DNA of 64,000 bases, from NCBI GenBank assembly GCA_017303935.1, contig JAFLBD010000001.1:620001-684000 (forward strand). The letters run 5' to 3'. Position 1 is the first letter of the stretch. Each line of letters opens with the position of its first letter. This stretch comes from Armatimonadota bacterium. GTDB taxonomy: Bacteria; Armatimonadota; Fimbriimonadia; Fimbriimonadales; Fimbriimonadaceae. Below, one piece after another: positions 5,101 through 13,682 of this stretch. A program made the position numbers and the translations under genes. The notes under the pieces were generated by a model. The model was not told where the DNA came from. It did no database searches and worked only from the letters and a program-made list of their open reading frames with translations.

Positions 5101-6279
5101 TCAGGCATTTTCATATCGCTGGATCAATTCATTCCAAGAGCCGTTTTCGATGGCACTACGGATTTCGGACATCAGCCGCGAGTAGAACCAGAGGTTATGC
5201 AGTGAAGCCAGCCGCGCACCAAGCGGCTCTTTGGCTTTGAACAAATGCCGCAGGTAAGCCGCCGAAGTGTTACGTGTTGGATGAAAAACGCTGTCGGGAT
5301 CGTGTGGACCATCGAATTCAGACCATTTCTGATTCATCGCGTTCACGCGGCCACGAAGCGTATACAGAGTGGCGTGGCGAGCCATACGGGTCGGAAGCAC
5401 ACAATCAAACAGATCAACGCCGCTGGCAACGGCGTGCAAGATGTCTTTCGGATGCCCTACGCCCATCAAATAGCGGGCTTTTTGGGCAGGAAGCAAGGGA
5501 GCAGTGAACTGCACCACCGGGTACTGCATCTCTGTGGGTTCTCCCACGCTGACCCCGCCGATCGCCATCCCAGCGAATGGAAGCTCTGAGAGAAATTGTG
5601 CGGATTCGGTGCGCAAATCTTCATGGACACCGCCTTGGACAATGCCGAAGACGGCTTGATCTGGCTTAGCTGCGGCTAGATTTCGTGGTGCCCAGAGGTG
5701 GGTTCTTCGCATTGCTGCCGCCGCCTCATCTTTCGTACAGGGATAAGGCGGACACTCGTCCAAACACATGCTGATGTCCACACCAAGCTTGCCTTGAATC
5801 GTGATCGAGTCTTCAGGGCGCATCACGATCTCGTGACCATCGAGGTGAGACTTGAACCGGACTGATTCGTCGTTGATCTCACGCATCGAGCTCAGCGACA
5901 TCACTTGATAACCTCCAGAGTCGGTGAGAATAGAGCCCTCCCAATCCATGAACTTGTGCAGGCCACCCAGCCTCTGGACGAGCTCCTCTCCGGGTCGCAG
6001 GCTCAAGTGATAGGTGTTTGAGAGGATTTGTTGGAATCCCATCGCGCGAATTTCGTCAGAAGACACCGTTTTGACGGTGCCTTGAGTTCCGACGGGCATG
6101 AACGCAGGCGTTTCCACAACCCCGTGTGGCGTGTGCAGCCGTCCGCGCCGAGCTTTGGTGATCGGGCAAATCGAAAGCAGTTCGTAATGAACGCTCAGAA
6201 TCGAACCCCAATTTGCAGAAGCAGCTGATTCTGGCCTTGGTTGTGACCGACGGTGCCTGCATTCGAGATGTGATACCAA
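5101..6279 (-). CDS. tgt: Queuine/preQ1 tRNA-ribosyltransferase lacking the zinc-site cysteines
   Basis: Exchanges guanine-34 for preQ1 or queuine in GUN-anticodon tRNAs. The catalytic core is intact: LTDSGGYQV (Asp120 as general base), FGIVQGG, and FDCVLPTR (nucleophile Asp292). The C-terminal zinc site is not: where the family has Cys-x-Cys-x2-Cys before RNxSxAYLxHL, this protein has Ser330, Phe332 and Thr335, while the fourth ligand, His361 in LHNL, remains. Family similarity begins near residue 31, and no ATG, GTG or TTG exists there; the only in-frame conventional start is TTG 6279, inside the upstream PagL-like gene, otherwise ATT or CTG near 6198 would be used. Start is therefore uncertain. 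Confidence 0.9.
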   Translation of the reverse strand: MVSHLECRHRRSQPRPESAASANWGSILSVHYELLSICPITKARRGRLHTPHGVVETPAFMPVGTQGTVKTVSSDEIRAMGFQQILSNTYHLSLRPGEELVQRLGGLHKFMDWEGSILTDSGGYQVMSLSSMREINDESVRFKSHLDGHEIVMRPEDSITIQGKLGVDISMCLDECPPYPCTKDEAAAAMRRTHLWAPRNLAAAKPDQAVFGIVQGGVHEDLRTESAQFLSELPFAGMAIGGVSVGEPTEMQYPVVQFTAPLLPAQKARYLMGVGHPKDILHAVASGVDLFDCVLPTRMARHATLYTLRGRVNAMNQKWSEFDGPHDPDSVFHPTRNTSAAYLRHLFKAKEPLGARLASLHNLWFYSRLMSEIRSAIENGSWNELIQRYENA

Positions 6280-6725
6280 CGAAGACCCAGTTGGTAGGTC
6301 GCTCCAGCACGGTCAAAAATGATCCCACCACCTAATGTTGGCGTGCTATTGAGCCTCGAGTCCAGATCAAATGTGGACTCGTTGGCGAGGTGTAGTCCCC
6401 AACCGAGTTCGTAGAAGAATCCGCGCTTGCTAGGCCCGATCACTTCGTACCGAGCAAGGCCGAGACTCGCAATCGCCCATGCTTTGTCTCGGGGTCGCCG
6501 ATTCCAGCCGCCGCCATAGCTAAATGACAACTGAGATTCGAATACAAGATAGAGCCTGTGACCATTGAGCGTAAGCCGCTTTTCAGGATGCGCCCACTGG
6601 ATCCCCATGGTGATTCCGACTCGCTTGTCTTGCGACCCAATGATCGGCATGTTGACCATCGGTGCGATGTAGGCAGTTCTGACTTCGGAGTGCATTTCTG
6701 GTGGTTTGGAATCCAGTAATAGCAT
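6195..6725 (-). CDS. PagL-like lipid A 3-O-deacylase family protein
   Basis: The 176-residue product ends in an aromatic residue after alternating beta-strands, as outer-membrane barrels do, and its C-terminal part contains RWYHISNAGTVGHNQG, which matches the PagL active-site region (His152 and Ser154). PagL removes the 3-O acyl chain of lipid A in the outer membrane. Oddly, no signal peptide is seen: the only start in the frame is ATG 6725 and a stop lies 12 codons further upstream. The gene overlaps the extended form of tgt. Export by an unrecognised signal, a wrong start or a non-enzymatic barrel are open alternatives. Confidence 0.7.
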   Translation of the reverse strand: MLLLDSKPPEMHSEVRTAYIAPMVNMPIIGSQDKRVGITMGIQWAHPEKRLTLNGHRLYLVFESQLSFSYGGGWNRRPRDKAWAIASLGLARYEVIGPSKRGFFYELGWGLHLANESTFDLDSRLNSTPTLGGGIIFDRAGATYQLGLRWYHISNAGTVGHNQGQNQLLLQIGVRF

Positions 6726-10126: not shown

Positions 10127-10158
10127 AGCCCGGTTCCTCGTGGTAACCGGGCTGTTTT
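10127..10158. terminator. Bidirectional hairpin terminator between glmM and the caspase-fold gene
   Basis: AGCCCGGTT at 10127-10135 pairs perfectly with 10145-10153 around a 9-base loop; a run of T follows on the plus strand and an A-rich stretch precedes it, so it can serve both glmM and the converging gene that ends at 10175. Confidence 0.9.
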
Positions 10159-10174
10159 TGTCATTGAACTCAGA

Positions 10175-11485
10175 TTAGAATCGTTCGTCAGAGAGCATGT
10201 TCACGATGACCGGGAGAGTCATAACTTGCTGACTTCCGGTACCGGAATCGCCATTGCGTCCGCCGCGCATCCAGTCGAAAACTCTCCAGCCGAATTCGGT
10301 GATTGGCACTTGGTTCGATCGGAACTCACCGAGCACGCCACCAATCGCGTCGCTGAACAATCCGACTTCCTGACCGTTTCGCACAACGCTATAAACCGAT
10401 CCATTCGGAATGGTGGCCTGAGTTTGGGCGATGGAACCCACCATCGGAGTTTCCAGGCCGAAGTATCGACCGGCAACCACTGGGCGGCTCACTTGGAAGA
10501 AAGCAAAGATCTTGCAACCCTTCGATACGAACAACTTGTAGAAGTCGCCCTTAGAGTACATCGAAGCGGAATCTGTCGAAGACTTCGCGTCGATTCCAGC
10601 CAAAAAGTCCTTACCGTCGAGGTTTGATCCTCCGCCGGAGAAGAACAAGAACACCGTGGCGCCATTGGTGACTCGTTGTGCAAATGCTTCAGCCGACGCC
10701 TTCATCTGTGCTGCGCCTGCGTTCGAGATAACGTCGATGTTCGCTTGGCCATAGCCAGCGTATTGAACCAACTTTTCTCGGAGGAACAGAACGTCTGATG
10801 CTGCGAAAGGAACTTTCATTCCCTCGACACGAGATTCAGAGTTTCCGATTAACAATGCGTACTTGTCGGCCATCACTCGGGCAGGGCCAGCGTCACCGAT
10901 GGTGGTCGTTGTTGTGCCTCCGTTGGAGTTGATGACGTCGGTGTTTCCGGTCAGTTGACCCAGAGCGGCCTTATCTTCTTGCGTGAAGAACTCGCCATCA
11001 ACCTTCCAATCGAACTTGCCGTTCTTGCCTTGGTACTTGGTTTCGAGTTCTTGCTGCTTGGCGACATCTCGAAGATTCGAGTAGGCCATGCTCAAGAAGT
11101 AGTAGGTTTCTCGGCTGTCTTGACCCTTCGCAACGAGCGCTTCGAACTCACCAGCGACTTGCTTCAGCAATGCGGTTTTGTCTGCATCCGAGGTGATCTC
11201 GTTTGTGAGCTTCAGTCCGCAATATGCTGCAGCGAAATTAGGTGAGTAGGGTGCGCCGTTTCGCCAAAACCGTCGCTCGGTGGCAGGTCCGGGAAGCTTG
11301 GTCGAGCCTGAGTAGTCCTCAGCCCTCAAGGAAGCTGCGCGAACAAATGCTTCGCGAGCCTCGCCCCACTTGAGGCTTTTCGCGCTCTTGAGACCCGCGT
11401 TGTATGCATCTGACCATGCTTGGCCAAATGCGACGCTTGCCGCAAGGACTGCAACTAAACTGAGTCCAATCCGTGAAAACTTCAT
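10175..11485 (-). CDS. Exported caspase-fold protein with apparently inactive catalytic site
   Basis: A signal peptide (about 1-22) is followed by a helical TPR-like region (about 25-160), a Thr-rich linker (about 190-200) and a C14/metacaspase-like domain (about 206-436). The first strand KYALLIGNSES, the A-x-D-V-x-x-L helix and the strand FLFFSGGGS match the fold, but Gly285 replaces the catalytic His of SGHG, and QVS (331-333) replaces the D-A-C that carries the catalytic Cys. It is therefore probably a pseudo-peptidase with a binding or scaffolding role. It is last in a three-gene minus-strand set of exported proteins, 35 bases after a PorV-like barrel gene. The caspase assignment is pattern-based. 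Confidence 0.65.
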   Translation of the reverse strand: MKFSRIGLSLVAVLAASVAFGQAWSDAYNAGLKSAKSLKWGEAREAFVRAASLRAEDYSGSTKLPGPATERRFWRNGAPYSPNFAAAYCGLKLTNEITSDADKTALLKQVAGEFEALVAKGQDSRETYYFLSMAYSNLRDVAKQQELETKYQGKNGKFDWKVDGEFFTQEDKAALGQLTGNTDVINSNGGTTTTTIGDAGPARVMADKYALLIGNSESRVEGMKVPFAASDVLFLREKLVQYAGYGQANIDVISNAGAAQMKASAEAFAQRVTNGATVFLFFSGGGSNLDGKDFLAGIDAKSSTDSASMYSKGDFYKLFVSKGCKIFAFFQVSRPVVAGRYFGLETPMVGSIAQTQATIPNGSVYSVVRNGQEVGLFSDAIGGVLGEFRSNQVPITEFGWRVFDWMRGGRNGDSGTGSQQVMTLPVIVNMLSDERF

Positions 11486-11520
11486 GCTAATCTTCTTTTT
11501 TGCCCCTCAAAGATATCTAT

Positions 11521-12678
11521 TTATTTGAATCGGTAGGTGAGTGAGAGCGAAAGATCGCTTGCTCCTCGGTCCGAGCTACCAAAATCTAGGTCGATGGCGT
11601 AGTTCGAGCCATCTGGCGCATAGCCAAAACCGAATGTGAAATGGTTGGTTTGGCTAAATCCGTCTCCGCCTTTGCCCACGTTTCGGAATCCGATCCGGAT
11701 AGGCATGGTACCTCCACGGTATCGGAAAGCGTATTCCGCGCCGACTCCGAGAGCAAGCTGGTTGTTCTTTCGGTGAATGATGCCAGCTGAGCTACCTCCG
11801 AAGAAGTAATCCATTTGCGCACCGACCAACAGCGAGTCATCTTCGGTTCGAACGGAATCCATGCGGCGAGCGATGCCAGCGGAGAATTTGCCTGGAATCC
11901 GCTTGTAATAATCTTCCACTGCGGCGTCGCCAGAGAGTTCGATCGGAGTTCGCAAGCTAAAGCCGAAACTTGTGTTCGCATCTGGGTTGAACTGCAACCC
12001 CACCACAGCTCCAAGTCCGAACAGGGTGCCCGAATTCTCGAGCGGTGTCACTGGGATCTGAGTATCGTCGCCCGTGTCAGGAGTTCCGTTGCTATTGAAC
12101 AGTTGATAGGTCTGGTTGTTGCGCGTGTTGTGGCTCGCCATGATCACACCCGCACCAAAGGACTGCTTAAAGTCTCCGGAGGCCTTGCCGTAGGAGATCG
12201 CGAAGAAGTCGGTCTTGGCTCGAAGCAACTCATTGTAGTTTCGATAAACCAGGTTGCCGTCGGTCAAGTTTGTGCCAGTCTTTCGATCCCGAATATAGCC
12301 GCCAACCGAATACGCCAGGCCAAGCGAAGCGTTCTTGCCCAGCGGCTTGATGTATCCAAGGTGGGTGATGACCCGCTTACCACTCGTGCCGCTCACTTCG
12401 TAGTCCGGATCAACAAAGCTATTGCTGATCTTAGTCTCAGACTCGGTCAGGTTCCGAGCGGTCATGTTGAACTGAGCTTGCGAACTGTATCCCAAGCCGG
12501 CCGGGTTGGTGATCGCAGATTGAGTGTTACTGCCACTCGCTCCGAGTGTTGAGCCAAGACCCAAGGATCGTCCGCCCGCATCAAATGCAGTCAGAAGATC
12601 AGGAATTTGGCTGTAGCCAGCGGCGCCGACAAGTAGCGCAGACGCGCAAGTGATGGTTCGCAAATTTACTCGATTCAA
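11521..12678 (-). CDS. PorV/FadL-like outer-membrane beta-barrel protein
   Basis: After a signal peptide the mature protein begins with GGRSLGLGSTLGASG and SAITNPAGLG, which resembles the N-terminal region of the PorV/PorQ/UPF0164 relatives of FadL. Alternating beta-strands run to the C-terminal LSLSLTYRFK, a typical barrel end. I chose TTG 12678 because GGAGGT lies 4 bases upstream, within the codons that would follow the ATG at 12690. Family members bring or hold exported proteins at the outer membrane or transport hydrophobic compounds; which applies here is unknown. It sits between the Ig-like and caspase-fold genes. Confidence 0.7.
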   Translation of the reverse strand: MNRVNLRTITCASALLVGAAGYSQIPDLLTAFDAGGRSLGLGSTLGASGSNTQSAITNPAGLGYSSQAQFNMTARNLTESETKISNSFVDPDYEVSGTSGKRVITHLGYIKPLGKNASLGLAYSVGGYIRDRKTGTNLTDGNLVYRNYNELLRAKTDFFAISYGKASGDFKQSFGAGVIMASHNTRNNQTYQLFNSNGTPDTGDDTQIPVTPLENSGTLFGLGAVVGLQFNPDANTSFGFSLRTPIELSGDAAVEDYYKRIPGKFSAGIARRMDSVRTEDDSLLVGAQMDYFFGGSSAGIIHRKNNQLALGVGAEYAFRYRGGTMPIRIGFRNVGKGGDGFSQTNHFTFGFGYAPDGSNYAIDLDFGSSDRGASDLSLSLTYRFK

Positions 12679-12716
12679 TGGGACCTCCATGTAGTGACGT
12701 AATGATCGAAAGAATT

Positions 12717-13682
12717 TTATCTGAGATTTACAGTGACCTGTTGCGTTGTCGCAGGATTTCCAGCGCGGTCAATCGCGGTGACCCTCAAATAGAATTGTCG
12801 AGGAAGGACTCGGGTGTTTCGAATCCGTCCAGTCCAATTCAGATTGTTGCCGCTGTTTCGGGCGGAAATTCGTGCGACCCTGCCAATCAAAACGTTGCCT
12901 GTGGTGTACATCGAAACGTCCACAGCAAGCGGAGTCACCGATCCAGAGAACTGGTCAAGAATATCGACGGCAACTGGAATTGTTGCGCCTGGGCGGAATG
13001 CGGTCGATGTTGGCGACAGGATTTGGATCGATGGAGCCACTCGGTCGAGCGTGACATTGATCCCCTTATTCGCTGAGTTCTTCGCTTTGTCGTCTACTTT
13101 GATGTTGATCGACTGTGAACCGTCGCGTTCGATGGCAGCGGTGTCCCAGGTGACGTTGACGGTCGAAGTATTGCCGGTGTTGTTTGGAATGTCAGTTCCA
13201 TTCACCTGCACGCGCCACTCTTCAATGTTGTTCTCTTGAAGACTAAGTTGAATTGGAACCAATCCGCGGACGAAAGTACCGCTCAAAGGATTGCTGTCCA
13301 AAAACTTCGGTTCGACCACGTCGATGGTGACATTGCTGATCGTGGTCACAGGGTAGCTGTTTCCGGGTTCAGTGACCGTCACAACGATCGTGTACAGACC
13401 TTCTGGAGTCGATCGGTCAAAGTTCAAATCAAGGTTGCCGGTGATCTTGTTTTCGTCGTTTGGGTCGAAGTCGCCTTGCTTGGTGAACCGGATCAACGGG
13501 TTGGCTACGTTGGTGATCGTAGCGGCCACACGGGCTTGAGCAAAGGAGTTGGTGGTGGTGAACTTAAGCTGGTTCGTTCGCCCCAAAAAGTCGCCAGTTC
13601 TCGGCGAAGTAATCTGAATAGTTCCTGCCCACGCGCCCGAGGCAAGAACGGTCGTCACACCGATCCAAAGAAATCTTTTCAT
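12717..13682 (-). CDS. Exported protein with tandem Ig-like beta-sandwich domains
   Basis: The signal peptide MKRFLWIGVTTVLASGAWAG precedes about three beta-sandwich repeats (20-117, 118-217, 218-321), with linkers such as VEPKFLDSNPLSGTF and the closing YLRVTAIDRAGNPATTQ, a pattern common in bacterial Ig-like or cadherin-like domains. I do not recognise an enzymatic motif. It is the first of three minus-strand genes separated by 35-40 bases, followed by the PorV-like barrel and the caspase-fold protein, so it may be a surface or periplasmic partner of them. Function unknown. Confidence 0.65.
   Translation of the reverse strand: MKRFLWIGVTTVLASGAWAGTIQITSPRTGDFLGRTNQLKFTTTNSFAQARVAATITNVANPLIRFTKQGDFDPNDENKITGNLDLNFDRSTPEGLYTIVVTVTEPGNSYPVTTISNVTIDVVEPKFLDSNPLSGTFVRGLVPIQLSLQENNIEEWRVQVNGTDIPNNTGNTSTVNVTWDTAAIERDGSQSINIKVDDKAKNSANKGINVTLDRVAPSIQILSPTSTAFRPGATIPVAVDILDQFSGSVTPLAVDVSMYTTGNVLIGRVARISARNSGNNLNWTGRIRNTRVLPRQFYLRVTAIDRAGNPATTQQVTVNLR

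Follow-up and report, generated by a model that had tools for sequence, protein, structure and literature searches.

The three genes described here are proposed to constitute a dedicated surface-protein anchoring cassette, resembling operons of the SprB-SprF-PorE type and lacking a detected type IX secretion channel, a reading to which we assign a probability of about 45%. They lie in the window (the whole stretch of 64,000 nucleotides that was analysed, from a Fimbriimonadaceae genome of the phylum Armatimonadota) as three minus-strand open reading frames forming a single unit, which encodes an Ig-like protein, a barrel protein, and a protein with a caspase fold, respectively. All three proteins would exit the cytoplasm by the Sec route, as judged from their N-termini; the barrel, assigned to the outer membrane by its fold, would hold the Ig-like protein via the C-terminal domain of the latter (D3), presumably at the cell surface; and the third protein may bind either the barrel or the Ig-like protein and act without catalysis, as a scaffold or as an assembly factor. 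A route for the Ig-like protein across the outer membrane was not found in these analyses.

The first gene (12717-13682, minus strand) encodes the exported Ig-like protein of 321 aa with a Big_13 domain. The second gene (11521-12678, minus strand), encoding a barrel of predicted FadL superfamily membership with PorV/PorQ-like sequence, is assigned a TTG start at 12678, which is preceded by GGAGG 5 bases upstream; from the first ATG, the frame would span 11521-12690 and encode 389 aa. The third gene (10175-11485, minus strand) encodes a 436 aa protein, in which a catalytically dead C14 caspase domain is combined with a TPR-like domain. The genes share a direction, as reported in an earlier, sequence-only reading of this DNA, and the gaps of 35-38 bases given there are right provided that the barrel starts at the TTG codon: the gaps are then 38 bases between the Ig gene and the barrel gene (26 bases if the first ATG at 12690 is used) and 35 bases between the barrel and caspase genes. 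An intrinsic terminator (10127-10153, minus strand) lies 3' of the caspase gene, with the stem GCCCGGTT/AACCGGGC at approximately 10153-10127 followed by TTTTCTG, and the folded region of its hairpin has a value of -18.8 kcal/mol. By sequence reading, all three proteins start with a Sec-type signal peptide, and none has a lipobox. The genes upstream of the trio, on the opposite strand, encode CheW, CheA, an HDOD protein and FliD, and a phosphoglucomutase-family gene is located downstream. An apparent upstream neighbor (cluster c3) was rejected as a mixture of antisense open reading frames and a HAD phosphatase gene, and two downstream candidates, pantothenate kinase-like (c7) and helix-hairpin-helix-like (c12), were judged unrelated from the sequence reading. 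In another part of the window, positions 6195-6725 (minus strand) encode a PagL-like lipid A 3-O-deacylase (PF09411, E 2.2e-12).

The existence of a three-gene exported cluster, claimed previously, is confirmed by the open reading frames, the export signals and a gene order that recurs in dozens of genera; because of this recurrence, the cluster is beyond chance. The trio is likewise conserved together in other Armatimonadota, the ordered arrangement of Ig protein, barrel and caspase being present in 37 of 44 named loci from the order Fimbriimonadales; all of these loci are titled Armatimonadota, save one titled "bacterium" and one titled "Methanoregulaceae archaeon", which we took as mislabelled. 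Of the seven loci without the full ordered trio, four are located at contig ends, two (L110 and L121) lack both the Ig and barrel genes, and in the last one a stretch of N connects both genes. Among 61 genomes (the source and 60 relatives), the barrel was identified in 39, the caspase in 42, and the Ig protein in 38, and the fetched loci of the relatives repeat the same gene order. For the four families that carry the trio (95 genomes), a count made by hand from the phylum profile searches gave both barrel and caspase in 76 genomes, the caspase only in 5, the barrel only in 1 and neither in 13 (Fisher p 3e-11, uncorrected for relatedness of the genomes). In L110, L121, G024, and G034, the Ig and barrel genes are jointly missing and the caspase is kept. 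The fixed order, the co-occurrence of barrel and caspase and the joint loss of Ig protein and barrel all argue for the anchoring cassette, whereas the few genomes that keep the caspase without the barrel or the Ig protein speak against it. In the phylum profile searches, the trio is missing from another family of the same order (f2); entire families, as well as complete genomes within the same family, also lack it. An apparent barrel-caspase fusion in one genome (G010; loci L060 and L103) was dismissed because a run of N joins the frames, pointing to an assembly gap and no fusion. At L060 (6457-8985), the barrel and the caspase are read through this run as a single frame of 842 aa.

The Ig-like protein consists of a signal peptide (approximately residues 1-19) and three domains, D1 (22-122), D2 (123-214), and D3 (215-321), with mean pairwise identities of 0.38, 0.48, and 0.40, respectively, in the order-wide alignment; its match to Big_13 (E 9e-6) scores 26.6 bits vs. 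a cut-off of 27. The D3 domain (12720-13040, minus strand) is Ig-like and invariably the last one: the D3 model matches strongly only once, at the C-terminal end, and does so in the multi-Ig homologs of 816 and 718 aa (G038 and G039) as well, and D2-type domains repeat in a variable number among homologs while D3 stays fixed. Where the D3 profile is present, it has one strong copy per genome, found in the trio only, with weak partial matches elsewhere, and a single-sequence search of this genome for shared C-terminal domains returned the trio alone. This distribution suggests that D3 is a dedicated partner domain, presumably binding the barrel, and no general sorting tag. The protein previously described as Ig-like does have a real Ig-like C-terminal domain, and the idea of an Ig-like C-terminal signal shared with other exported proteins is not supported, since D3 occurs once per genome and in the trio only. 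The restriction of this distinct C-terminal domain to the trio, while the D2-type repeats vary, supports the anchoring model; against the model, the similarity between D3 and the C-terminal domains of Ig proteins from two families outside the order (f12 and f28) is not significant.

By sequence, the closest NCBIfam family of the barrel is PorV/PorQ (NF033709), which is matched by 34 of 35 barrel homologs and, below the cut-off, by the window barrel itself (E 1.4e-7, 31 bits vs. a cut-off of 90). The Toluene_X model (PF03349) is matched by 8 of the 35 homologs at E 0.001; it matched neither the window barrel nor anything in its own genome, though the controls rang. A search of the genome contigs with the single barrel sequence found nothing. 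The AF2 model of the barrel (pLDDT 85, pTM 0.81) places it in the FadL superfamily and suggests its insertion into the outer membrane; its function is not given by the fold alone. This model matches FadL with Z 34, Bacteroidota BAM complexes containing a FadL-type subunit with Z 29-30, and PorV with Z 26, the closest solved folds being FadL and TodX (Z 29-34). The earlier description of the barrel as PorV-like is thus right as to the nearest family by sequence, but the score is below the cut-off and the fold is nearest to FadL.

The difference in fold scores (Z 34 for FadL vs. 26 for PorV) makes it possible that the barrel transports small molecules, which counts against anchoring. Under this alternative, the trio would comprise an ordinary FadL-type transporter of hydrophobic molecules and two exported accessory proteins that aid its assembly or gather its substrate. 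The trio barrel shares the 14-stranded fold of FadL/TodX transporters (PF03349) and the NPAG hatch motif, which is common to FadL; however, most of its homologs match the family model weakly or not at all and nearly all match PorV/PorQ, and the barrel has conserved Ig and caspase neighbors, its linkage to Ig proteins extending to multi-Ig proteins outside the order. To our knowledge, linkage to Ig proteins is not typical of FadL, and we regard the transporter alternative as unlikely. A far less probable alternative is that the trio assists the machinery that assembles the outer membrane as an accessory module, similar to BamG and the surface lipoprotein BamH of Bacteroidota (PMC12611786), where a FadL-type barrel also provides the docking platform for an extracellular protein. 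It is favored by the match to the Bacteroidota BAM complexes, which scores above PorV, and by a weak match of one barrel from family f28 to the BamG model of NCBIfam (E 6.5e-6); the same model (NF053685) is absent among the matches of the window barrel at E 1 and among those of the 35 homologs. However, BamG-BamH belongs to an essential assembly machine and contains no caspase, whereas the trio is missing from whole families and from complete same-family genomes, which would be odd for such a machine; also, BamH is a lipoprotein, and the Ig protein has no lipobox. Barrels of the FadL or PorP type hold surface proteins in BamG-BamH (PMC12611786), PorV (PMC5562754), and SprF (PMC12618676, PMC9143113), which is a further argument for the anchoring reading. 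As FadL-related barrels (PorV and BamG) have repeatedly been used for holding surface proteins in Bacteroidota, finding such an operon conserved in a phylum far removed from them would show either that barrels served this purpose before type IX secretion and more widely than in it, or that the use has arisen twice.

The third protein comprises a signal peptide, a TPR-like helical domain (approximately residues 23-178), and a C14 caspase domain (approximately residues 204-436) with an above-cut-off match to Peptidase_C14 (PF00656, E 2.6e-5); among its homologs, 23 of 32 have a C14 match and a few have TPR matches. MALT1 is both the best solved relative of its profile and a close structural match of its AF2 model (pLDDT 88; Z 23, rmsd 3.0 over 211 residues), in agreement with Foldseek. 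The MALT1/metacaspase group (C14) thus provides the best match of the C-terminal half in fold and sequence; unlike these proteins, the gene 3 product has its catalytic His and Cys replaced, is exported, and is fused to a TPR-like domain. The earlier parallel with the C25 sortase PorU is not supported in this respect, as the domain is C14/paracaspase-like, and its designation as a pseudo-caspase is upheld, the caspase fold being real and both catalytic residues being missing. In an alignment of 84 rows, some of which share a genome, 83 rows have a letter at the catalytic columns, and none of these shows either residue; position 331 is Gln or Glu, and 334 is always Arg. With neither catalytic residue left, the gene 3 product cannot act as a cysteine sortase in this trio. 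The dN/dS values of the caspase half are 0.008 and 0.014 in two close genome pairs; therefore, the dead domain is not decaying and is under very strong purifying selection. A dead caspase fold has been kept across dozens of genera after the loss of its catalytic residues. Six other exported caspase-domain proteins from trio-bearing relatives were inspected, of which five keep GHG and DAC and one keeps GHG only. Large exported proteins with an N-terminal caspase domain carrying GHG and DACR recur in Fimbriimonadaceae (L226-L229; the frames read are roughly 760-975 aa long and truncated where the stretches end).

Related cassettes are found elsewhere in the phylum. Outside the order, a multi-Ig gene immediately precedes the barrel in all five matches with E < 1e-30 (that of L202 being cut by the contig end), vs. 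one of nine weaker matches, and the arrangement of a multi-Ig gene before the barrel occurs in two other families, f12 and f28. The third gene of f12 has a C14 domain at its end, and both complete cases, L199 and L203, show FAGHG and DACR there. These f12 genes are related to gene 3 by profile-profile comparison (85.8%, E 5e-6), whereas a direct HMM search with the gene 3 domains against them was not significant. The upstream multi-Ig genes in five of five strong matches, the relatedness of the intact f12 caspases to gene 3 and the selection on the dead caspase half all count in favor of the anchoring model. The apparently intact caspase in the related cassette of another family makes it possible that the caspase of gene 3 had an active processing enzyme as its ancestor, and the f12 version offers a direct handle on whether surface proteins can be processed by C14 caspases. 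An extended proposal, which we consider unlikely, is that Armatimonadota have their own type IX-independent surface display, in which an Ig protein and a PorV-like barrel would be served by an Ig-processing C14 caspase that lost catalysis in Fimbriimonadales and became a dedicated scaffold. A decayed sortase complex, where the caspase formerly cleaved the Ig protein and attached it in the manner of PorU but now has only a holding role in a PorU-PorV-like attachment complex of Fimbriimonadales, is likewise considered unlikely. The intact His and Cys in f12 and the relatedness of the third genes would favor such decay, but the caspase is C14-like and not C25, no C25 was found in the source genome, and we know of no sortase chemistry for the C14-like family. 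A further point in favor of decay is the PorU-PorV attachment complex of Porphyromonas gingivalis (PMC5562754). In f28, other genes follow the barrel and no caspase was seen; hence the caspase is not a fixed part of the barrel cassette, and this observation weighs against the anchoring model. A second cassette in G039 (L076, 1-6774) encodes an Ig-repeat protein and a PorV-like barrel, followed by a third protein at least 1077 aa long; the N-terminus of the latter weakly resembles gene 3, and its available part contains no caspase.

Among known systems, the SprB-SprF-PorE type operon of T9SS type B substrates in Bacteroidota (PMC12618676, PMC9143113) appears to be a better parallel for the anchoring cassette than PorU-PorV. 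There too, a surface protein with a C-terminal binding domain has its own barrel encoded immediately after it, and the operon also includes a partner with TPRs; the trio differs in that its barrel is PorV/PorQ-like and not PorP/SprF, a dead caspase takes the place of the propeller and peptidoglycan-binding domain in its third protein, and no T9SS channel was detected with it. The PorU-PorV-PorQ-PorZ attachment complex (PMC5562754) shares the FadL-type barrel, a caspase-like fold and Ig-like C-terminal domains; however, PorU is an active C25 sortase whereas the caspase of the trio is C14-like and dead, and the Ig C-terminal domain of the trio is not common to many cargo proteins. The SprA/Sov translocon model (PF14349) had no match in the 61 genomes or in 291 genomes of the phylum, and no control genome rang either. 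The type IX-like attachment parallel drawn by the sequence-only reading can thus be kept in part: the trio is conserved, its barrel is nearest to PorV/PorQ, the caspase and Ig folds are real, and an apparently intact caspase version exists elsewhere in the phylum, but D3 is no shared tag, and neither a C25 sortase nor the type A tail was found in the source genome. Among the papers searched, none covers PorV together with Armatimonadetes. The PorU model of the C25 sortase (PF01364) found none in the source genome, and the same search matched four relatives; strong C25 peptidase matches were observed in G038 (E 9e-59) and G051 (E 6e-49) at L051 and L052, which shows that the model is effective. 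The T9SS type A tail model (TIGR04183) had no match in the source genome at E 0.001 (four candidates scored). Weak matches to this model occur in some relatives (L242 and L243; G050, E 1.4e-10), including genomes without a C25 match.
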